From positions 62,001-126,000 of the forward strand of contig CAJFSS010000006.1 in NCBI GenBank assembly GCA_904419745.1: a DNA stretch of 64,000 nt, given 5' to 3'. Shown here one piece after another: positions 20,629 through 31,760 of the stretch; within the stretch, counting starts at the first letter, position 1; each line of letters begins with the position of its first letter. The notes beneath the pieces are model-generated. The model worked only from the letters and a program-made list of their open reading frames with translations, did no database searches and was not told the DNA's origin. The DNA is from Candidatus Pseudoruminococcus merdavium (lineage in GTDB: Bacteria; Bacillota; Clostridia; Oscillospirales; Ruminococcaceae). A program made the translations under genes and the position numbers.

Positions 20629-20662
20629 CCGGAAAAGAAAGGGCGGCGTAAGCCCCGCCGCC
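20629..20662 (-). terminator. Terminator of the RiPP operon
   Basis: GGCGGCG (20642-20648) pairs with CGCCGCC (20656-20662), and the minus strand continues CTTTCTTTTCC. It is 40 nt past the exporter stop. Confidence 0.7.
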
Positions 20663-20701: not shown

Positions 20702-22465
20702 TTATACATAATACTGCGCCTGCAATTCAAACATGGTATAGTATGTTCCCTTTTGCCGCATCAGTTGTTCATGCGTGCCGTATTCCTTCATCTCTCCATT
20801 TTCAAACACAGCAATCTGATCGCAGAACTTGGAACTGGACATTCGATGTGAAATGAAGATTGCCGTTTTTCCATAGACAAGCTCTGAAAAGTTTTTGTAG
20901 ATTTCCGCTTCCGCTTTCGGATCAAGCGCTGAAGTGGGTTCATCCAAAATGATAATGGAAGAGTCTTTATACAGCGCGCGGGCAAGGGCAATCTTTTGCC
21001 CTTCACCGCCGGAGGGTTCAAACCCGTTTTCCACAAAATTCTTATACACATAAGTCCGTACCCCATCGGGCAGGTTTTTCATCTTGTCGCTCAAACCGCT
21101 GCGGCATAACAAATCATACACCATTTGATCCGTTTCCTCTTCCGAACGTTCAAAGACAATGTTCTCTTTCAAGGTGAACGAAAGCAGCTTGTAATCCTGA
21201 AAAACACAGCCAAACGCCTGCATATAGGCGTCATAATCGATATCGCGGATATCAATCCCATTGAGCAGGATACGCCCCTGTGTTGGATCGTAAAGACGGC
21301 AGAGAAGCTTGACAAACGTAGTTTTCCCCGCCCCGTTTTCTCCGACTACCGATAATTTTTCCTCAGGGGAAAGCGTGATGTTAATGTCTTTGAGCGCATA
21401 GGAACTCTGGCCGGGGTAACGGAAACTCACATGTTCAAACCGAATTTCATAGGGACCCTGCGGCAAAGGGAGCCGCTTTCCCTGTCTCATTTTCTGCGGG
21501 ATATCCATATAATCCATCAGCGCATCATAATAGCCGCTGAACTGGCGGATATCCAGCAGGCTTTTCATCAGCGCGTTCATGGCGGTGGAAAAATTGAGCA
21601 GGGCTGTTATGTACATCGTAAAGTCGCCGATACCTATGGCCTTTCGTATCACCTGAAAGGACAAATACCCATAGGTGATGCCTTTGAAAACAAAGTTCAT
21701 AAAGGTTGCAAGATAGTTCGCTTTATTGAGCTCATTTATCTGCTTTTTATAAAAATCACAGGACTCGTCAAGATGCAGCCGGATTTTTTTAACCAGCCAA
21801 TCCTTAAGTCCAAAAATCCGGACCTCCTTGCCAAAGGAAAAGTTTCCAATCAAATCCACAAGATACGATGTTTTTCGCTCAATGGGCGCCTTCTCCATAT
21901 CCCAGGACACATACTTTTTCCTCACCTTGGATTCATACAGGGCGTTGAGCAGCACCAGCGCAATAAACAGCAGCACAATCAGGGGATTTAATGTGGAAAT
22001 AATGGTGATAATACCCGCGAATGTGAACAGCTTTCCCAGGATTTGAAAGGCGCTGTCCATGACCACCCCAAAGCCCTGCCCATTGGCATAGAGGAATTTT
22101 TCCGCCTTTGCCTTGGTATCCAGGAACTTCGGATCTTCCAGCCGTTCAAAGTCGCTGCGGGAAAGCCGCTCGGACAGATCCGCCTGGAACAGGGCAAAGA
22201 GCCTTCCTTTTAAGTTAATGCACTTTCCGGAAAGATAATTGCTGAGCCAGCCGCCCAAAAGGTTGATAATCAGCAAAAGCCCGATAAATACCGCCAAAAC
22301 GGGAACCCTCTGCATGCCGGTCAGTTCATCGATGATGTACTTGGGAATCACCGTGTCCGCCAGGGGGACTGCCGCGGTAATAAATTGAAGCAGGATGCTG
22401 TCAATCACATACCATTTTTCATGTTTCCAGCTATATCCTATCAAAAAACCAATTCCGTTTTTCAA
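20702..22465 (-). CDS. ABC exporter of the RiPP cluster (fused membrane and ATPase domains)
   Basis: About 587 aa; six membrane helices (about 10-310), then an ATPase with Walker A GENGAGKTT, signature PSGGEGQKIALARAL and Walker B IIILDEPTSALD with the catalytic Glu. There is no C39 peptidase domain, so leader removal must come from another protein. TTG 22465 is chosen because AAGGG lies 5 nt upstream and it overlaps the preceding stop (TTGA); a longer reading from 22546 has no ribosome-binding site and starts inside the preceding gene. It is last in the RiPP operon and probably exports the mature peptides. Confidence 0.88.
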   Translation of the reverse strand: MKNGIGFLIGYSWKHEKWYVIDSILLQFITAAVPLADTVIPKYIIDELTGMQRVPVLAVFIGLLLIINLLGGWLSNYLSGKCINLKGRLFALFQADLSERLSRSDFERLEDPKFLDTKAKAEKFLYANGQGFGVVMDSAFQILGKLFTFAGIITIISTLNPLIVLLFIALVLLNALYESKVRKKYVSWDMEKAPIERKTSYLVDLIGNFSFGKEVRIFGLKDWLVKKIRLHLDESCDFYKKQINELNKANYLATFMNFVFKGITYGYLSFQVIRKAIGIGDFTMYITALLNFSTAMNALMKSLLDIRQFSGYYDALMDYMDIPQKMRQGKRLPLPQGPYEIRFEHVSFRYPGQSSYALKDINITLSPEEKLSVVGENGAGKTTFVKLLCRLYDPTQGRILLNGIDIRDIDYDAYMQAFGCVFQDYKLLSFTLKENIVFERSEEETDQMVYDLLCRSGLSDKMKNLPDGVRTYVYKNFVENGFEPSGGEGQKIALARALYKDSSIIILDEPTSALDPKAEAEIYKNFSELVYGKTAIFISHRMSSSKFCDQIAVFENGEMKEYGTHEQLMRQKGTYYTMFELQAQYYV

Positions 22466-23298
22466 ATATTTCCCTTCTTTCCATTCCCCTTCCTTCCATC
22501 CGGAAGCCATGTCGTCCGCGCCATGGGAGGGGAAACTTTTTTCCATTTGATGGTTGCCGTCTCATGATACAAAACAGGGGAAACCGCCGACGTCTGCGGG
22601 TAACAGATTGTAATAACCCCCTGGTTTCGTTCCACTGCAATGGGAGGCATCTCCTGTTCCGGGTTATCAAAAAAGAGGTGATCATATCCGCGGGTCATTT
22701 GAATTCTTGCAAAATAATGCGCATAATCTTCCAGCCTTTTGCACTTTATCAGTATGCCGGAAACAAATTTACAGGAAAGATAGTCCCGGCGCTGTCCGGT
22801 TTCCGCCAATGCAGTGTGGACGTTCTGATCCGTAAAAGGGGTCAAATCATACAGGTAATACCAGCCGTCATGCACAAAATAATTGCACACATGCCCGCTC
22901 CCCGTTGGCCGGGAAAAGGAAAAATACCCCATCTTTTCATACTTGCCATCCAGTAAATACCGCAGCCAGGAGGCGTCGGAGGAACAGCAGCCCTCGTTGG
23001 TCAGCACCGCGTAATACCCCGGCTTGTGGAATTCCCAAAGCCGCTCCCCTTCCCGTACCAGTTTCACATCCGACATCTGGTGAAACCGGGACAGGAGGAA
23101 AAGCTGCACGGCCTCGTAAAGGGTGGAAATCCTATCCCGCTTTTCCTGCGGGGAAAGGCGGACCATTTGCTGTATTTGATCGTTTGTATAGCGGGTCCCG
23201 CCAAGCCGGTTGACCGGAACCCAGTACACATCCCTGGATAGCCGCAGTTCAAAATGGGCGTCCGCCCTGAGATGGACGCAATCAAAGTTTGACGACAT
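22462..23298 (-). CDS. Transglutaminase/cysteine-protease-like protein of the RiPP cluster
   Basis: 278 aa, no signal peptide. A Cys-His-Asp order typical of the transglutaminase-like fold can be read: NEGCCSSDASWLRYLLDG (Cys104/105), PTGSGHVCNYFVHDGWYYLY (His136) and YDLTPF (Asp151), with the GWYYLYD spacing seen in that superfamily. The N-terminal 90 residues are helical and unfamiliar. It may process or cross-link the peptides, but the family assignment rests only on these motifs. It begins 5 nt after the subtilase stop and is coupled to the exporter downstream. Confidence 0.5.
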   Translation of the reverse strand: MSSNFDCVHLRADAHFELRLSRDVYWVPVNRLGGTRYTNDQIQQMVRLSPQEKRDRISTLYEAVQLFLLSRFHQMSDVKLVREGERLWEFHKPGYYAVLTNEGCCSSDASWLRYLLDGKYEKMGYFSFSRPTGSGHVCNYFVHDGWYYLYDLTPFTDQNVHTALAETGQRRDYLSCKFVSGILIKCKRLEDYAHYFARIQMTRGYDHLFFDNPEQEMPPIAVERNQGVITICYPQTSAVSPVLYHETATIKWKKVSPPMARTTWLPDGRKGNGKKGNI

Positions 23299-23303
23299 CC
23301 CAA

Positions 23304-25097
23304 TTACCCCCGGAAAAAATCAATGCAGGCGTTCAGCAGTTTTTCTCCATCCGAAGGGTTTCCTGTGACAACCACCGGCAAATGGAACAGGTTTTCCAGC
23401 TCCTGTTTTCTTGCCAAAAGCTGCTGTTCCCCCACGCCCGTCTTGTGATCGTTTGCAATCCCCCAGCCATTCTGGAAGGTTTTGGGGTACATGGCAAGCG
23501 CAATGACCCGGCAGGAAACCAAACTTTGGACGGCCATAATCGTACGCCTGATATAATCCGAACGATCGTCCACATTGACCACCAAAACCACTGCGTCCGG
23601 TTTGGTGGCAAGCAAAAAGGCATACTGTTCCAAAAGAATTTGCCCCAAATTGTAATAGCCCTGGGGAATGGTTCCAGACTGGGCGCCCACCAGGAGAATA
23701 TCCGGATTTTTTTCATCAATCTGGTGCATCAGGGTATTTACATAATCCAGGTTCTCAAACTGGTCCTGGCTGACAATCGGATTATAACCAAACGCGAAGA
23801 CCTTGTCAATGCCGAATAACTTGGAGGACGGTTCCGTCCCCAACTGTCCCACAGTGTAGCCTGCATCCTCAAATAAATAGCGCAGCTGGAGCTGCACGGT
23901 AAACTTCCCCTGTTTTCTGGTTGTCCCAAACACTCCCAATACCGGGGATTTGGTCAGATACAGTTTTCCAAATTTATTTTTCAGTTCCATGTTTTCCAGC
24001 TTGGGATACTGCAAAAGCAGTCCCTGCGCTTCAAATCTGGGTTCAAATTCTTTCATACACTCCGCGTCAAAGGAGTAAACATGAATTCCATGTTCCAGGC
24101 ATTTTTCCAAAATCCGGCTTTTTATCGGCTGGTTGGCGCGCCCTTCCTGTTCCGAAATATGGCCGATGATCAACGTGTCAAACCCCGTGAAATCACAGCG
24201 ATCGATGTTCTGGACAGTAAACGCGGGCTCTTTTTCAAAAATCCCCTTTGCTTCCAGTCCAATATGGCCGGAGTATTTGGTGTCATAGACGGCGCAAAGT
24301 TCAAACGGCAGGCGTTTGCGGTAATTGATCAGGCTGTCCATCTCTTTATTAAAAGGGAAAATGGCAGCCCGCCGGATTTGTTTTGCCAGATCCGGTTTGT
24401 GGGAAACTTTGACCTTGGACGGGTAGACATATTTTGCATGGCTTTTCAAGTAGGGCAGAATCTCCTGTTTGGATACCCCGTCCAAATAACAATTGGCAAT
24501 ATATGCCGTCACATAAGGCGCGGCAAAACTGGAGCCCTGGTTTATTACATAGAGCGGATCTCTCCAGGGAACCCGCTGAATTCCGCCTTTTGCCCGAAGG
24601 TTTACAGGGCTGTTTTCCACATACACAAAATCATCCGCATGCGTACAGCGTCTGGAAGAATCCACCCCGATGACAAAATCATAAGCCGCAGGATAGGAAA
24701 TAGCGCCTGCATTGTCAAACGCGGAGACAATGGTCACGCCTTTTTTATCGAGTTTTTGGCAAATCTCTTTTAAGGGATCGCTCGGCACCCGAAGACCCAT
24801 ACTCAAGTTTAGGATATCACAGTCCACGTTATCATAGACATACTGCAATGCAGAAAGGGTTTTCCGGGTAAGTTCCGGCAAAGAAGGGGAAAAGATATTG
24901 AAATTGAGGATTTCCACCCGTTCATCCGTATAATTGGCAAGGATCCCACACACCGCCGTCCCATGGGGGAGATCCGTCTCCTTTTCCTGCGACCGGTTTT
25001 TCCATGTATCGCCCACCTCGTTGTATACCCGGATGTTTTTCCCGCGAAACACCGGGTGTTCCAGATAAGCCTGGCTGTCAAGCACCGCTATTTTCAT
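23304..25097 (-). CDS. Cytosolic subtilase fused to a P-loop-like peptide-maturation domain
   Basis: 597 aa from ATG 25097 (GGAAG upstream). Residues 1-230 are an S8 subtilase: Asp7 (AVLDSQ), His45 (LPHGTAVCG), oxyanion Asn129 (AFDNAG), Ser190 (GSSFAAP). There is no signal peptide or prodomain, so it acts inside the cell. Residues 255-597 form a second domain starting AAIFPFNKEMDSLINYRK, with a P-loop-like VFGTTRKQGKFTVQLQL and a DILLVGAQSGTIPQG segment. From memory this resembles the TIGR04066 peptide-maturation family of Clo7bot-type systems and DUF1611. Likely role: leader removal coupled to maturation. First gene after the three precursors. Confidence 0.8.
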   Translation of the reverse strand: MKIAVLDSQAYLEHPVFRGKNIRVYNEVGDTWKNRSQEKETDLPHGTAVCGILANYTDERVEILNFNIFSPSLPELTRKTLSALQYVYDNVDCDILNLSMGLRVPSDPLKEICQKLDKKGVTIVSAFDNAGAISYPAAYDFVIGVDSSRRCTHADDFVYVENSPVNLRAKGGIQRVPWRDPLYVINQGSSFAAPYVTAYIANCYLDGVSKQEILPYLKSHAKYVYPSKVKVSHKPDLAKQIRRAAIFPFNKEMDSLINYRKRLPFELCAVYDTKYSGHIGLEAKGIFEKEPAFTVQNIDRCDFTGFDTLIIGHISEQEGRANQPIKSRILEKCLEHGIHVYSFDAECMKEFEPRFEAQGLLLQYPKLENMELKNKFGKLYLTKSPVLGVFGTTRKQGKFTVQLQLRYLFEDAGYTVGQLGTEPSSKLFGIDKVFAFGYNPIVSQDQFENLDYVNTLMHQIDEKNPDILLVGAQSGTIPQGYYNLGQILLEQYAFLLATKPDAVVLVVNVDDRSDYIRRTIMAVQSLVSCRVIALAMYPKTFQNGWGIANDHKTGVGEQQLLARKQELENLFHLPVVVTGNPSDGEKLLNACIDFFRG

Positions 25098-25145
25098 GTT
25101 CTCACTTCCTATTGTTATCCTATAGACGCAGAGGAATATTAGCAT

Positions 25146-25185
25146 GGAAACTACGCCCGGAAGATATCAAACCTCCCGGGCGTAG
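25146..25185 (-). terminator. Partial terminator between precursor genes and processing genes
   Basis: CTACGCCCGG (25151-25160) pairs with CCGGGCGTAG (25176-25185) around a 15-nt loop, followed on the minus strand by TTTCC. The weak T-run suggests partial read-through, giving more precursor than enzyme message (inference). Bases 25186-25268 otherwise contain no gene. Confidence 0.5.
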
Positions 25186-25268
25186 CTCTGGCAAGAATCA
25201 GCGTCTACCCGATGCGGATTCTATGTGAAGCTTTCTCTGCTGTATATCACAGAGAATCGAATGACGGT

Positions 25269-25382
25269 TTACCAATCAAGCCCGCACGCAAAATCGCTGC
25301 AAAATCCTACATTGTCAACGTAGAGATCGAGCCAGTTGTCGTTCATGGTTTCCATTGCCGGTTTTTTCAGTTCGACTTTCAT
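25269..25382 (-). CDS. RiPP precursor peptide 1
   Basis: 37 aa, preceded by AAAGGAGGCGCCAAG. N-terminal region MKVELKKPAMETMN followed by DNWLDLYVDNVG, then FCSDFACGLDW. Two cysteines (28, 33). The first 21 codons are nearly identical in DNA to those of the other two precursors, while the C-terminal part differs and ends in the shared CGLDW. This is the typical conserved-leader, variable-core pattern of a RiPP substrate beside a radical SAM maturase. Confidence 0.85.
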   Translation of the reverse strand: MKVELKKPAMETMNDNWLDLYVDNVGFCSDFACGLDW

Positions 25383-25426
25383 TCTTGGCGCCTCCTTTTT
25401 CTGTCTTCGATTGAAGTTAATAAATC

Positions 25427-25531
25427 CTACCAATCAAGCCCGCATATGAAACCAACACTATGGTCGCCATACAGATCCAACCAACCGTCGTTCATGGTTT
25501 CCATTGCCGGTTTTTTCAGTTCGACTTTCAT
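25427..25531 (-). CDS. RiPP precursor peptide 2
   Basis: 34 aa with the same ribosome-binding site and MKVELKKPAMETMN leader, then DGWLDLYGDHSVGFICGLDW. Only one cysteine (30), so any maturation that needs two cysteines cannot apply to this copy. It is separated from the precursors on either side by exactly 44 nt each, indicating tandem duplication. Confidence 0.85.
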   Translation of the reverse strand: MKVELKKPAMETMNDGWLDLYGDHSVGFICGLDW

Positions 25532-25575
25532 TCTTGGCGCCTCCAGCTTCTTAATCAATGATGTTGACAGAATCT

Positions 25576-25698
25576 TTACCATTCGAGTCCGCAAGCAGCA
25601 TCACACATCCAACCACAGACTCCCACATTATCTACGTATAAATCGAGCCAGTTGTCATTCATGGTTTCCATTGCCGGTTTTTTCAGTTCGACTTTCAT
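25576..25698 (-). CDS. RiPP precursor peptide 3
   Basis: 40 aa, first of the three in transcription order. Same leader, then DNWLDLYVDNVG and core VCGWMCDAACGLEW with three cysteines (28, 32, 36) at i, i+4, i+8 spacing. It ends GLEW instead of GLDW. AAAGGAGG lies 8 nt before the ATG. Confidence 0.85.
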   Translation of the reverse strand: MKVELKKPAMETMNDNWLDLYVDNVGVCGWMCDAACGLEW

Positions 25699-25725
25699 TC
25701 TTGGCGCCTCCTTTCTCCCTGTGTA

Positions 25726-25743
25726 TTTAAATGTACATTTAAA
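25726..25743. promoter_or_regulatory. 18-bp perfect palindrome before the precursor genes
   Basis: TTTAAATGTACATTTAAA, between the ACP stop (25746) and the first precursor. It could be an operator, an RNA processing hairpin, or part of an internal promoter; function unknown. Confidence 0.5.
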
Positions 25744-25745
25744 GG

Positions 25746-25988
25746 CTATTCGTTTGCAGCCGACAGTTCCTCGACCATTTCCACCAGGTCTTTAAACGAC
25801 GCCAGCCGCCCCGGTACAATGTATTCATCCGGGATTTCTATTTCAAATTCCTGTTCCATTTCTGTGATCAGCGTCACAAACATCAGGGAATCCTCCACCA
25901 CATCGGACAGCAGGAAGTTCTCCTTGTCCTCTTCAAAAATCACCCCGATACTGTGCAGGCACTCTTTTAACCGATTGACCGTTTCCAT
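25746..25988 (-). CDS. Acyl-carrier-protein-like protein of the RiPP cluster
   Basis: 80 aa, acidic, four-helix ACP pattern. The phosphopantetheine attachment motif is visible as VVEDSLMFVTLITEMEQEF, with Ser about residue 34, followed by EIEIPDEYIVP as in true ACPs. It starts 11 nt after the radical SAM stop. ACP-related proteins accompany CcpM-type radical SAM maturases in clostridial Clo7bot-like clusters (TIGR04069, from memory). The intact Ser suggests that it really carries a thioester-bound group. Confidence 0.85.
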   Translation of the reverse strand: METVNRLKECLHSIGVIFEEDKENFLLSDVVEDSLMFVTLITEMEQEFEIEIPDEYIVPGRLASFKDLVEMVEELSAANE

Positions 25989-25999
25989 AGGTATCCCCC

Positions 26000-27307
26000 T
26001 TAATCAATAAGCTCAAATACGCCGCTTTGGTCCAGCAGCTGGAAAACATACTTGTGTGCCATGCCTTCATACCCGCATAACACTTTATCGGGCAAGATAT
26101 AGCCCTTCGCGGCGCAGTTTCTGCCCAGGCAGACTGGAAGCATGTTGCAGGTCCTGCATTTTTCCCGGGAAGTATCCGGCAGGGTCCATTTGGCGATTTT
26201 GGCCATATCCAGTTCCATGGTCCCATCGTCGTGCAGGAATCCCACGTTACTTTCCGGAGCATCAAGCTGCATGGAGCATTTTACTATCCTTCCGTCCGCG
26301 CGGAGAATGTAGCTATTGCGTCGGGTTGTAGCACAGATCTGGTTTGCTGTAAACCCCTGATAAACACGGTAGTCCAGATGAATATTTGCATCGATAATCG
26401 GCTGATACAGCCGTTCAAAGTTCTGAACCAGTTTATCTTTCAGATGGAATTCCTTGGTCTTCGACCACTGTCCCACCGGACGAAAATAAAAGCTGAACCG
26501 GTGATCGTCCCCAAAGAGTTCCTCCATTGTTTTCAAATGCTCCGGCATCTTGTCCACCACGTCCGTGGTCACATTGGTACGCACCGCAACCACAATATTG
26601 CCGGATTTACAGTTGTTTTTGATGGCGATAATGTTGTTCATCACCGCGTCATAGCTTCCGCTTCCATCACGCCGGACTTTCAGTTTGTCATGGGTTTCTT
26701 TGGTGCCATCAATGGTTACCTGGAAAAACGTGACATGGTATTTTAACAGCTTTTGAAAGGTTTCATAGTCCAGCAGCGAACCGTTGGTGATGATTGTTGC
26801 CGTATAGGGTTTGCGCGCCTGTTTGCAAATGGAGAGAAACTGTTCCGACAGGGAATAGATGATGTCCTTTTCCACCAGAGGTTCCCCGCCAAACCAACTG
26901 ACATTCAGTGCGGAATACCGGTGGATGTTGTTGCGCAGCCAGGTCACCAGTGCCTGTTGGGTTTCCGGCCGCATGGCGCCAATTTTAAAATCCTCATAAC
27001 AATAGACGCAGCGGAAATTGCACTGTTCCGTTGGCATAATGGTCAACATCAGCTCCGGGGAGTTGATCATATCGTTGCGCCAAAGTTGGAACAATTCCGT
27101 TTCATTCTCGTCTTTGTCTACAAGAAACCCGTTTTCCACCAAAGGCCGGATGACCGGGCTGTCCGGACTGCTGTCGGGATTGTTCAATATACTCAGCACC
27201 TCATCCTTTTTCGTTACCGCTTTGAGGTATCTTTTGGTTAGAGAATTATAAAGCAAAACCCTGTCGCCCACTGTGTGAACAACATTGAACATGGATGGTT
27301 TATACAT
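26000..27307 (-). CDS. Radical SAM/SPASM peptide maturase
   Basis: 435 aa from ATG 27307. The SAM-cluster motif C-x3-C-x2-C is CNFRCVYCYED (about residues 102-110), followed by SWFGGEPLV (GGE motif) and TIITNGSLL. The C-terminal SPASM domain has its cysteines in ICATTRR, IVKCSMQLD, CRTCNMLPVCLGRNC and VLCGYEG, for two auxiliary [4Fe-4S] clusters. The N-terminal 80 residues are probably the peptide-recognition wing. First gene of the RiPP operon. Such enzymes make thioether, C-C or epimerised residues; the closest type I recall is CcpM of Cys-rich clostridial peptides (TIGR04068). Confidence 0.93.
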   Translation of the reverse strand: MYKPSMFNVVHTVGDRVLLYNSLTKRYLKAVTKKDEVLSILNNPDSSPDSPVIRPLVENGFLVDKDENETELFQLWRNDMINSPELMLTIMPTEQCNFRCVYCYEDFKIGAMRPETQQALVTWLRNNIHRYSALNVSWFGGEPLVEKDIIYSLSEQFLSICKQARKPYTATIITNGSLLDYETFQKLLKYHVTFFQVTIDGTKETHDKLKVRRDGSGSYDAVMNNIIAIKNNCKSGNIVVAVRTNVTTDVVDKMPEHLKTMEELFGDDHRFSFYFRPVGQWSKTKEFHLKDKLVQNFERLYQPIIDANIHLDYRVYQGFTANQICATTRRNSYILRADGRIVKCSMQLDAPESNVGFLHDDGTMELDMAKIAKWTLPDTSREKCRTCNMLPVCLGRNCAAKGYILPDKVLCGYEGMAHKYVFQLLDQSGVFELID

Positions 27308-27340
27308 CAACTTTCCATCTCCTTCCATTTGATTACCCAA

Positions 27341-27369
27341 AGTATAGCAAAACAATAGTAGAATTTCAA
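27341..27369 (-). promoter_or_regulatory. Promoter of the RiPP operon
   Basis: TTGAAA (27369-27364), 17-bp spacer, TATACT (27346-27341) on the minus strand, close to the radical SAM start. The very A+T-rich region 27370-27640 separates it from the divergent BtrH-like gene. Confidence 0.7.
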
Positions 27370-27697
27370 TAAATATATAAAAAAATATTTTATACTTATA
27401 TTTATTGTTCACAATTTCGGAAATCGCAAGAAAAATCCTTCAAATTTCGACATTTTCACCAAATAGATTCCCAGCGCCTCTTTGGAAGTTTTCCCGCGGA
27501 AACAAATATTTTCCAGTTCGGTCAGTTGTAAATTGTAGGAATTTATAATATTTTTCATTATTTCAAATGATATTGTATTCTTTTATCACAAAAATTTATG
27601 TAAAATCCTGTCTTTTGGGGCTTGATAAAATAGCCAGGTGGTTTATCATGAATCATATAGAAAAACAAACCCCATGGAATTTCAGGAGAAGATGAAA

Positions 27698-28690
27698 ATG
27701 AAAGTAATGAATCAATGCCTGCCGCCGCCAAATGTTAAAGTGATGAGCTGCATTTTTGATCGGATTTTTTCCGCATTTCGCTATTTTGCGGGAAACAGCC
27801 CGCATCAAATGGATCTTTTTTTATACCTGCTTGAAATGGATTTAACCTACCGTCCGGAAATCCGCGCACAGCCGCTTCCCGATGATCCCTGGTTTTATTC
27901 ATGTATTGGGTTTCAAAACCATGTGCCGGACAATCCGCAGGCGCAGACGGACGCTTATGCTCCCCTCAACCATTTTTTGCAGGCGTACAACCTGCATATT
28001 TCCTACCAGGAAAACCTGGATTTCCCCGCATTGGTTCTGGAATTGATTAAGAGTTTTCAGGAAAACAAAGTCACGATCTTGTTAATTGACCAGTTTTATA
28101 ACCGCCATAGTTCTTACTATCACAAAATGCAAAATGCAAATCATGCTCTTTTAATAAAAGGGATGGATACACAACAACAGCAAATCACAATCTGTGATAA
28201 AAAGGATATTTCCTATTCCTTTGAGGAAGTCAAAGACATGATGACGGGGGGGATCATCCAGCTCAGTTGCTTGGATGACAAGGGGTTTTTCCAGGCAACC
28301 CCGAATTATCCTGTCATCTACCAAAACAGCAAACAAAAGCTGAATCTTCTGGAAACCATCGCCCCCTTCTTCCAGGAAATAGAGCAGACGATGCGGCAGG
28401 AATCCAAAATTGCTTTTTATGCCAAAGCATACTATATGTCCACTTTATATCAGCTGATTCCCTTTGTTACGGCCAGAGATATCCTGTTTCAAAATCTTAA
28501 GATTCCGGAAAAATTCCAGAACGCCGCGACCGCTTCCAGAGCAAAATGGGAGGAGTTTTCCTATTGGCTTGCAAAAATATCCATCCTCAAGCGCCTTTCT
28601 TATGATCAGCTGACCCATAGAACTTCAGAACTTTTCGCAATGGAACAGCAATTCTGCCAGCTGCCTGACAAAATACCGCCCGTGGTGTAA
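27698..28690 (+). CDS. BtrH-like (C39-related) acyltransferase/protease-fold protein
   Basis: 330 aa from ATG 27698 (AGGAG 9 nt upstream). A Cys-His-Asp set can be read: VMSCIFDRIFSAF (Cys18), NANHALLIKGMD (His149) and ITICDKKD (Asp167), with the long LLIDQFYNRHSSYYHK strand before the His. This matches the N-terminal domain of butirosin protein BtrH, which transfers an acyl group from the carrier protein BtrI. The C-terminal half is helical. It is divergent from the RiPP operon and shares its upstream region. With an ACP in the operon, a role in acyl transfer to the peptide is possible (inference). Confidence 0.6.
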   Translation: MKVMNQCLPPPNVKVMSCIFDRIFSAFRYFAGNSPHQMDLFLYLLEMDLTYRPEIRAQPLPDDPWFYSCIGFQNHVPDNPQAQTDAYAPLNHFLQAYNLHISYQENLDFPALVLELIKSFQENKVTILLIDQFYNRHSSYYHKMQNANHALLIKGMDTQQQQITICDKKDISYSFEEVKDMMTGGIIQLSCLDDKGFFQATPNYPVIYQNSKQKLNLLETIAPFFQEIEQTMRQESKIAFYAKAYYMSTLYQLIPFVTARDILFQNLKIPEKFQNAATASRAKWEEFSYWLAKISILKRLSYDQLTHRTSELFAMEQQFCQLPDKIPPVV

Positions 28691-29398: not shown

Positions 29399-30181
29399 AT
29401 GACGCAAGCTGAAAAAAGACTTTTTTTAATCCGGTCTCTGCTCCGTGAGCATCCGGGTTCTTCGGACAGGGACATTCCAGCGGACAAACAGCAGCAAAAG
29501 GATCTGCTCCGTTCGCTGTTTAACATCCGCCCGCCGCGGCCTGTCAGCGAGGAATTTTTGGAAATACAGGATTCCTATTTGCAGCGGGAAATCCAGCAAA
29601 AGGGGAGAACTGATTTAGCCGATCTCAAGCCCATACAGGAGGGGATCTATCTCTGGCGGGGAGACATTACTACCCTGCGCTGCGACGCGATTGTCAATGC
29701 CGCCAACAGCCGGATGCTGGGCTGTTTTGTACCCTGCCATGGGTGTATTGACAATGCCATCCATACCTATGCGGGCGTACAGCTGCGGTTGGCTTGTGCG
29801 CAGCTGATGGAATTGCAGGGCCGCGAAGAACAAACCGGCAGTGCAAAAATGACTCCGGCGTTTAACCTGCCCTGCCAGTATGTGCTGCACACAGTGGGGC
29901 CGATTGTCTATGGAAAGTTGACGGCTCAGGAAGAACGCCAATTGGCTTGCTGCTATCGTTCCTGTTTGGAGCTTGCCGCGCAAAACAATATAAAAAGCAT
30001 TGCGTTTTGCTGTATTTCCACGGGAGAATTTCATTTCCCTGCGGATAAAGCGGCCAAAATCGCCGTACAGACAGTACGCGAATACAAAAAGCAGACGCAC
30101 AGCAACATCGAGGTGGTTTTCAATGTTTTCAAGGAGAGCGACTATCACATCTACCGGGAATTACTCGGAGCAAATTCGTAA
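29399..30181 (+). CDS. Zinc-type macrodomain protein, ADP-ribosyl hydrolase
   Basis: 260 aa, ATG with AAGGAGGGG upstream. A helical N-terminal extension of about 70 residues (RLFLIRSLLREHP) precedes the macrodomain: LWRGDITTLRCDAIVNAANSR, then LGCFVPCHGCIDNAIHTYAG (the extra Cys/His loop of zinc macrodomains), LPCQYVLHTVGPI and IAFCCISTGEFHFP. Such enzymes remove ADP-ribose from proteins. It overlaps the sirtuin gene that follows, forming the macrodomain-SirTM pair known from Staphylococcus and Streptococcus, where SirTM adds and the macrodomain removes ADP-ribose. Confidence 0.93.
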   Translation: MTQAEKRLFLIRSLLREHPGSSDRDIPADKQQQKDLLRSLFNIRPPRPVSEEFLEIQDSYLQREIQQKGRTDLADLKPIQEGIYLWRGDITTLRCDAIVNAANSRMLGCFVPCHGCIDNAIHTYAGVQLRLACAQLMELQGREEQTGSAKMTPAFNLPCQYVLHTVGPIVYGKLTAQEERQLACCYRSCLELAAQNNIKSIAFCCISTGEFHFPADKAAKIAVQTVREYKKQTHSNIEVVFNVFKESDYHIYRELLGANS

Positions 30182-31001
30182 ACTGAGCCATGCGCTGTAC
30201 AACGCGGACGCCCTTGTCATTGGCGCCGGCGCAGGACTTTCTGCGGCGGCGGGGTTTGCGTATGATGGGAAACGCTTTCACGAATCTTTTGCCGATTTTG
30301 AAGCAAAATATGGGTTCCACGATATGTATACCGGTGGGTTTTACCCATACCTGACGCCGGAGGAATTCTGGGCGTACTGGAGCCGGTATATCTACTGCAA
30401 CCGCTATGTGGATCCGCCAAAACCCGTCTACCAGGATCTGCTGGAATTGGTAAAAGACAGGGATTATTTTGTCATTACTACAAATGTGGATCATTGTTTC
30501 CAGAAAGCGGGATTTGACAAAAAGCGCCTGTTTTATACACAGGGGGATTACGGCCTTTTTCAGTGCAGCAAGCCCTGCTGTCATGAAACTTTTGATAATG
30601 AGGATATCATCCGAAAAATGACAGAACAGCAAAAGGACATGCGCATTCCCTCCGCCCTGCTTCCCATCTGCCCCCACTGTGGGAAACCCTTGACCGTGAA
30701 TCTGCGATCCGACGACAAGTTTGTGGAAGATGAAGGATGGCATATGGCTGCTGAGCGTTATGCAAACTTTCTGCGGACAAGGGAAAATCTGCATGTGCTG
30801 TTTTTAGAACTCGGCGTAGGATTTAACACCCCCGGCATCATCAAATATCCCTTCTGGCGGATGACAGCCAAAAACTCCAAGGCCATGTATGCCTGTATTA
30901 ATCAAGGCGACGCAATTTGCCCGAACGGAATGGAAGCGCGGACAATCTGTATAGATGGAGATATCGGAACGGTACTAAAAACACTGAGCGCTGCAAAATA
31001 A
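30123..31001 (+). CDS. Class M sirtuin (SirTM), NAD-dependent protein ADP-ribosyltransferase
   Basis: About 292 aa. NAD-binding motif VIGAGAGLSAAAGF (about 35-48), then ITTNVDHCFQKAG and FYTQGDYGLFQCS (the catalytic His position of deacetylase sirtuins is altered, as in SirTM), a structural zinc set (CSKPCC, CPHCG), and FLELGVGFNTPGIIK. The start is uncertain: ATG 30123 lies within the macrodomain gene, overlapping it by 59 nt. Pathogen versions modify a lipoylated GcvH-like protein; no GcvH-L or LplA gene is visible nearby, so the target is unknown. Confidence 0.9.
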   Translation: MFSRRATITSTGNYSEQIRKLSHALYNADALVIGAGAGLSAAAGFAYDGKRFHESFADFEAKYGFHDMYTGGFYPYLTPEEFWAYWSRYIYCNRYVDPPKPVYQDLLELVKDRDYFVITTNVDHCFQKAGFDKKRLFYTQGDYGLFQCSKPCCHETFDNEDIIRKMTEQQKDMRIPSALLPICPHCGKPLTVNLRSDDKFVEDEGWHMAAERYANFLRTRENLHVLFLELGVGFNTPGIIKYPFWRMTAKNSKAMYACINQGDAICPNGMEARTICIDGDIGTVLKTLSAAK

Positions 31002-31334: not shown

Positions 31335-31760
31335 GTCGCTCCCGCATGGGAAGCGTGGATTGAAATAGCACTTTGCGCTTCGACTCCTCTTTCGTGAGCC
31401 GCCGCTCTCCGTGTGAGGAGCAGGTTGAGATTTATGGGATTGATAAGGACATAGCGTCCACTCCCGAAAGGATATGGATGAAAGGCGGACTTTTTACAAC
31501 ATCTGCCTGTGGTGCAGAGCCGTTTCCCTTATGGGGAGTGTGGGTGGAAATGATACTTCCGAAGAAAATGTCTGGCTGATGCCGCCGCGAGTCGCTCCCC
31601 AGTATGGGGAACGTGGATTGAAATGCCCGTGTGGGTGCTGATCTCATTTCCCATTTTTGTCGCTCCCCCGGTATGGGGAGCGTGGATTGAAATCCTGATG
31701 GAGCGGCCCGATGTGGACGGCCCTGCGACTCTGTTCCCCATACGGTAGGGGGAAAACCGG
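31335..31760 (+). CRISPR. Eroded orphan CRISPR array, type I-C-like repeats
   Basis: Recognisable repeats at 31335-31366, 31401-31431 (degenerate), 31456-31483 (very degenerate), 31519-31551 (degenerate), 31591-31624 and 31659-31693, with a last trace near 31727-31760. All derive from a 32-35 nt unit starting GTCGCTCCC, with a CCCC...GGGG stem and ending GCGTGGATTGAAAT, the type I-C pattern. Clear spacers are 34 nt (31367-31400), 35 nt (31484-31518), 39 nt (31552-31590) and 34 nt (31625-31658). No cas gene occurs in the window, and most repeats carry substitutions and indels, so the array is probably inactive. Confidence 0.8.

Follow-up and report, generated by a model that had tools for sequence, protein, structure and literature searches.

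A putative ribosomal peptide operon with an intact acyl carrier protein and a subtilase-TIGR04066 fusion in Candidatus Pseudoruminococcus merdavium

Gene content and layout of the locus

The DNA analyzed here, referred to as the window, is a 64,000-nucleotide stretch of Candidatus Pseudoruminococcus merdavium (GenBank assembly GCA_904419745.1, contig CAJFSS010000006.1, positions 62,001 to 126,000). An earlier note described its positions 20702 to 28690 as a cluster for a ribosomally synthesized and post-translationally modified peptide (RiPP), with a radical S-adenosylmethionine (SAM) maturase, an acyl carrier protein (ACP), three precursors, a subtilase fusion, a transglutaminase-like protein, and an exporter. 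We confirm this description: the named genes are all open and intact at the positions given there, they form a complete RiPP gene set in one apparent transcription unit, and assignment of the locus to RiPP maturation and export is supported. A divergent BtrH-like gene (27638 to 28690), a separate component, was absent from the title of that note, which also overlooked its role as a companion and the contrast in the ACP serine described below. The features are as follows.

27638..28690, plus strand: divergent BtrH_N/C39-like companion (Pfam BtrH_N, 20.6 bits, below the 29.7 cut-off); the true start is probably downstream of 27638
27341..27369, minus strand: promoter-like site 5' of the maturase, TTGAAA-17-TATACT with TG ahead of the second hexamer (consensus scan only)
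27307 to 20702, minus strand: operon of maturase, ACP, three precursors, fusion, transglutaminase-like protein, and ATP-binding cassette (ABC) exporter, in transcription order
26000..27307, minus strand: radical SAM/SPASM peptide maturase, 435 amino acids (Pfam Radical_SAM, 68.6 bits); the longest open reading frame (ORF) runs from 27412, and the start is probably the ATG at 27307
25746..25988, minus strand: ACP, 80 amino acids (Pfam PP-binding, 22.6 bits, above the 20.8 cut-off)
25576..25698, minus strand: precursor A, MKVELKKPAMETMNDNWLDLYVDNVGVCGWMCDAACGLEW, 40 amino acids (ribosome site, near-identical leader copies, relatives in loci L117 and L142)
25427..25531, minus strand: precursor B, MKVELKKPAMETMNDGWLDLYGDHSVGFICGLDW, 34 amino acids (same basis as precursor A)
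25269..25382, minus strand: precursor C, MKVELKKPAMETMNDNWLDLYVDNVGFCSDFACGLDW, 37 amino acids (as precursor A, with synonymous-only differences from A over 26 codons)
25148..25188, minus strand: stem-loop between the last precursor and the protease gene (fold of -32.4 kcal/mol for 71 nucleotides, z of -4.9)
23304..25097, minus strand: fusion protein of 597 amino acids, joining a QhpE-like subtilase and a TIGR04066/DUF1611-like P-loop domain (NCBIfam; Pfam Peptidase_S8 and DUF1611); the start is probably 25097, the shorter one in common with L117
22462..23298, minus strand: transglutaminase-like (Cys-His-Asp) protein, a candidate second peptidase, in the same place in L117 and L142
20702..22546, minus strand: ABC exporter with membrane and ATPase domains (Pfam ABC_tran, NCBIfam export ABC families)
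20642..20662, minus strand: terminator-like hairpin 3' of the exporter (consensus scan only)

The stem-loop at 25148 to 25188 is a probable partial terminator or mRNA stabilizer, and similar hairpins lie 3' of the last precursor in seven relatives (L046, L048, L117, L123, L125, L126, and L142). Since a stable hairpin follows the last precursor, precursor mRNA would be expected to be more abundant than enzyme mRNA.

Precursors, processing enzymes, and proposed pathway

To find related loci, 1,433 genomes from the family, order, and class of the host and one sister family were searched with profiles and protein sequences. The fusion, whole or in part, was recovered at about 24 loci, rare and scattered over many genera; the window genome was the only member of its genus among the genomes searched. 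The order of maturase, ACP, precursor(s), fusion, and ABC exporter recurs, partly rearranged, in about 18 loci of other genera. The fusion was the useful bait: a contig scan with the radical SAM enzyme alone returned only distant SPASM enzymes from other phyla. A search for the fusion on plasmids, by tblastn, and in viral contigs found none. Operons of this branch have serine recombinases (assigned by Pfam) and a group II intron reverse transcriptase (recognized by eye) close by, at L117:466-2079, L048:17762-19423, and L045:4205-6022, a sign of mobility.

A conserved, encoded precursor adjoins a peptide-modifying enzyme in these loci, the arrangement by which a RiPP pathway is recognized, and on the evidence of the sequence the three window precursors are real genes. 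Each is preceded by its own GGAGGCGCC-type ribosome site, all three leaders begin with an identical MKVELKKPAMETMND, and the first 26 codons of precursors A and C differ at five synonymous and no non-synonymous sites, from which it follows that the reading frame is under selection. The earlier note had staked its reading on conservation of the frames in related genomes, and matching precursors are indeed encoded by L117 (MKETLKKPVDSTANDNWLDLYGECTTGSHCGHDCGLDW) and L142 (MKKTLRKPMKKVADKMVPAYVGENAGIALVCGYNF), whose hosts belong to another family of the same order. L117 shares with the window the order of maturase, ACP, precursor, fusion, transglutaminase-like protein, and ABC exporter, and L142 adds to this operon a BtrH-like gene in divergent orientation. 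The GL(D/E)W ending reported earlier is present and is partly conserved in relatives as CG[LY][DEN][WF]; every core carries at least one Cys, and in the window precursors the lysines are confined to the leader. Short precursor-type ORFs (basic start, Cys-bearing end, ribosome site) occurred in 18/18 related operons searched, at a density of 0.246 per kilobase on the operon strand versus 0.026 on the antisense strand and 0.032 outside the operons, approximately 8- to 9-fold the control density, by a pattern that was defined after inspection of the precursors and applied unchanged to the controls. Precursors of the branch formed by these loci are 24 to 50 amino acids long, with lysine-rich leaders and Cys-bearing cores, and include still shorter forms such as MKKLVKPMKEKMNFALYNENNCWC (two near-copies in L128) and MKKLRKNRNILKVSLYVENGVFACCW (one of four in L046). 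The TIGR04065 (CLI_3235) model found no match among the window precursors (E up to 1) or those of relatives (E up to 10); the precursor of L130, a canonical locus, that is, one of the CcpM/CLI_3235 type, matched it at 38.2 bits.

The CxxxCxxC motif and the SPASM cysteines of the maturase are invariant among 17 relatives. Its best NCBIfam match is TIGR04463, at 206 bits against a cut-off of 525, and it scores 168 bits against Clo7bot TIGR04334 (cut-off of 600). In the maturase tree, the enzymes of fusion loci form a separate clade (support of 100/99) throughout which the fusion is found; the three transglutaminase-bearing loci (the window, L117, and L142) constitute one clade within the tree (89/85), with the window and L117 joined at 100/99. 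A second, smaller radical SAM gene lies directly 5' of the maturase in L048 (L048:6686-7678).

The fusion opens straight into its protease domain, with no signal peptide seen. The best NCBIfam match of this half is QhpE NF049966 (95.9 bits, with a cut-off of 165, over positions 1 to 214 of 219), and the subtilase Asp-His-Ser triad is present in the window protein and all full-length members in an alignment of six fusions. The other half matches TIGR04066 over positions 2 to 357 of 361. DUF1611 relatives such as DgcN are regarded as N-acetyltransferases, an activity for which the literature searched held no confirmation.

Designation of the next gene product as transglutaminase-like is upheld by a Cys-His-Asp set (C104/C105, H136, D151) that is invariant in seven proteins, although no Pfam model reaches its cut-off; the L142 member has a subthreshold match to DUF553, and a single-sequence structure model (predicted local distance difference test score of 36) was too poor for fold matching. 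No relative of solved structure was recovered with profiles built from the transglutaminase-like and BtrH-like families. Relatives away from any maturase lie at L140:1342-2709, L141:7998-9368, L143:10674-11465, and L144:4748-5608, and two of these four proteins have a hydrophobic N-terminal anchor. The B2 protease of lasso peptide pathways is also transglutaminase-like (C96; PMC10885120), and like the window protein it is a Cys-His-Asp protein within a RiPP cluster; in contrast, no sequence match between the two was found and the operon has no lasso cyclase; the role of the window protein is proposed by analogy only. The ABC exporter lacks a C39 peptidase domain.

Taken together, these features make it very probable, from sequence and by analogy, that the operon makes ribosomal peptides that are cross-linked at Cys by the radical SAM enzyme, relieved of their leader by the subtilase, and exported by the ABC protein. 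The ribosome would produce three peptides of 34 to 40 residues, and the maturase would bind their lysine-rich leader (MK..LKKP) and join a core Cys to a nearby residue, most likely as a thioether to an Asp, Glu, or Asn side chain, in the manner of PapB and QhpD. The QhpE-like half of the fusion would then strip the leader in the cytoplasm, the transglutaminase-like protein might cleave the peptide once more or install another bond, and the exporter, having no peptidase domain of its own, would carry the product out of the cell. Both the ACP and the TIGR04066 half presumably act in the same maturation. The order of the steps, the type of bond, the cleavage site, and any acylation are what we infer. 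The logic of radical SAM enzyme, QhpE subtilase, and ABC exporter (QhpF) has been established experimentally for the qhp genes: thioethers from Cys to Asp or Glu are installed by QhpD, and cytoplasmic cleavage by QhpE takes off the leader (PMC7876137). The qhp substrate, unlike the short peptides of the window, is a protein subunit of an enzyme, and that operon has neither an ACP nor TIGR04066. By profile score, the window maturase belongs to the same radical SAM/SPASM branch as PapB, the ranthipeptide maturase of freyrasin, and the TIGR04463/Clo7bot maturases, which are among the best NCBIfam matches of the fusion-clade enzymes, but it falls far below their cut-offs. PapA carries CX3D repeats, which the window precursors lack, and we know of no ACP in the freyrasin cluster.

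Several points weigh against this pathway. The cores with one Cys (precursor B and that of L142) have room for no more than a single thioether, and conservation does not single out an acceptor residue. The radical SAM chemistry is assigned by analogy only, because no curated family cut-off is reached, and no characterized homologue explains the roles of the ACP, the TIGR04066 domain, or the BtrH-like protein.

The acyl carrier protein and its BtrH-like companion

The window ACP has a DSL phosphopantetheine serine, which aligned with that of Escherichia coli AcpP, used as a yardstick. This serine is kept in 19/19 fusion-branch ACPs, whereas it is absent from all 18 canonical TIGR04069 proteins, which have Pro (12 proteins), Ala (5 proteins), or Thr (1 protein) in its place. 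In the window's own genome, a weaker ACP-like protein (27 bits) that also has the serine lies beside a canonical TIGR04066 protein in L165. The intact serine suggests that an acyl group is carried.

The divergent BtrH-like gene belongs to the system of the operon. By an iterated profile, companions of this kind accompany 16 to 19 of the 24 fusion loci, versus 0/20 canonical loci, a count given as a range because the profile drifted toward longer proteins; the sole canonical match, in L196, was rejected, as it covers the drifted part of the profile only and was missed by the original one. The L045 relative exceeds the BtrH_N cut-off (33.1 bits), and most companions fall below it. Most companions lack the Cys found near the N terminus of BtrH_N, but the window protein has a Cys near the expected place. 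In L115:4625-6415 and L126:16425-18239 the BtrH-like region lies within a protein of approximately 600 amino acids, the extra N-terminal part of which matches no Pfam model.

How the ACP participates can be read in two ways. It may be a structural adaptor only, for example, one that gathers the precursor, maturase, and TIGR04066 domain, with nothing acylated; this is a serious possibility, if short of an even prospect. Canonical TIGR04069 proteins do without the serine within the same gene set, and one such set, that of SacP23, reportedly yielded an active product when expressed heterologously (PMC10731318). Retention of the serine in all 19 ACPs, highly divergent as they are, is hard to explain on these terms without use of the cofactor.

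Alternatively, and more tentatively, ACP-dependent acylation may be the key step, in which either host fatty acid enzymes or the TIGR04066 half would load the ACP, and the new N terminus of the core would be acylated, after the subtilase cut, by the BtrH-like protein or the TIGR04066 domain, to yield an acylated, cross-linked peptide. The freed N terminus would be the only amine of the core, since the lysines of the window precursors all lie in the leader. BtrH itself is the acyl-ACP:aminoglycoside acyltransferase of butirosin biosynthesis (PMC10318531), and the window resembles that system in the weak BtrH_N similarity of the companion and in the adjoining ACP; it differs in that the active-site Cys is mostly absent and the acceptor would be a peptide. 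Transfer of an ACP-borne acyl group to the peptide is plausible and is favored by the finding of an intact ACP together with a BtrH-like protein. We hold it well short of probable because the Cys has been lost and a search of the operon neighborhoods for a recurrent adenylating or acyl-loading gene found none, and because the serine-less canonical ACP indicates that the fold is usable without a cofactor.

Kinship to known systems and significance

A further alternative concerns the function of the exported peptide, which might serve not as an antimicrobial but as a signal or a peptide-borne cofactor; we regard this as possible but rather unlikely. The QhpD/QhpE scheme itself serves cofactor formation (PMC7876137), and some of the very short cores are near-identical in tandem (L128 and L129). 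Beside two related operons lie AgrB and a GHKL kinase, at L117:2835-5571, with a LytTR regulator added, and at L044:14270-16454, which suggests density control. However, secreted bioactive peptides are the more usual setting for a dedicated exporter and for several tandem cores that diverge from one another.

The fusion loci are a rare sister branch of the CcpM/CLI_3235 type, as judged by comparison of sequences; the DNA itself shows the genes and the catalytic residues they encode, the family of precursors, and the recurrence of the components together. The branch is apparently undescribed, as it was found neither in NCBIfam or Pfam nor in the literature searched, outside of which most subscription journals lie. 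The window and the CcpM/CLI_3235 system (TIGR04068, TIGR04066, TIGR04069, and TIGR04065) have in common a radical SAM/SPASM enzyme, an ACP-related protein, TIGR04066, a subtilase, an ABC exporter, and a leader beginning M(K/R)K(L)xK. They differ in that the window branch has its subtilase and TIGR04066 fused, precursors of 24 to 50 versus about 44 to 73 amino acids, an intact ACP serine, and a usual BtrH-like companion, and it misses every curated cut-off. The likeness to Clo7bot/CcpM systems proposed in the earlier note is real for the maturase, ACP-related protein, and TIGR04066 but distant; TIGR04066, TIGR04068, and TIGR04069 were matched, at 92, 86.7, and 28.5 bits, below their cut-offs of 200, 500, and 70. 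The same note regarded the subtilase-TIGR04066 fusion as an addition. The fusion is new, but a subtilase is standard in published CcpM clusters, where it is separate, as in that for SacP23 of Paenibacillus polymyxa (PMC10731318) and in that of Roseburia intestinalis (PMC4573289). Among the canonical loci, TIGR04066 was separate in 20/20, a separate subtilase lay nearby in 8/20, and precursors were of the MKKLGKK...VEAY kind, about 44 to 73 amino acids long in the loci read. Neighboring genes may have been joined to give the fusion, or a fusion may have split into the canonical pair. The window genome also encodes two TIGR04066 proteins above the family cut-off, beside other maturases. At L050:7176-13227 in that genome, a pair of paralogous lipoprotein genes, of which one matches Pfam SBP_bac_1, comes after a TIGR04066 cluster in place of a subtilase.

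It is quite improbable that the locus simply represents the known CcpM/Clo7bot system with its precursors shortened: the set of radical SAM enzyme, ACP-related protein, TIGR04066, subtilase, and ABC exporter is the same (PMC4573289 and PMC10731318) and the leaders start alike (MKKLGKK...VEAY versus MKKLxKP...LY), but maturase, ACP, TIGR04066 part, and precursors all miss the curated cut-offs, the maturases form a clade of their own, the protease is fused, the serine and BtrH contrasts hold, and the G946 genome carries both the fusion-branch and the canonical kinds.

Elsewhere in the window, a macro-domain gene is followed by a Sir2-like gene in an overlapping frame (29399 to 31001), as in ADP-ribosylation pairs, and three to four degenerate 28-nucleotide repeats resembling clustered regularly interspaced short palindromic repeats lie at 31339 to 31693, with no sizeable array seen there.

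In summary, the locus very probably directs RiPP maturation and export, and it contributes a precursor family for genome mining that NCBIfam and Pfam, as searched, do not recognize. A bolder proposal, which we advance as speculative and unlikely as a whole, is that a stand-alone, intact ACP, without a polyketide or non-ribosomal synthase, acylates a radical SAM-modified peptide and that the fusion couples leader removal to N-terminal capping; if this were true, the carrier that lacks the serine in the widespread CcpM system would be a decayed relative. A branch in which the carrier serine is kept and TIGR04066 is fused to the protease, with substrates of 24 to 40 amino acids, makes the roles of the ACP-related and TIGR04066 proteins of CcpM systems directly testable.

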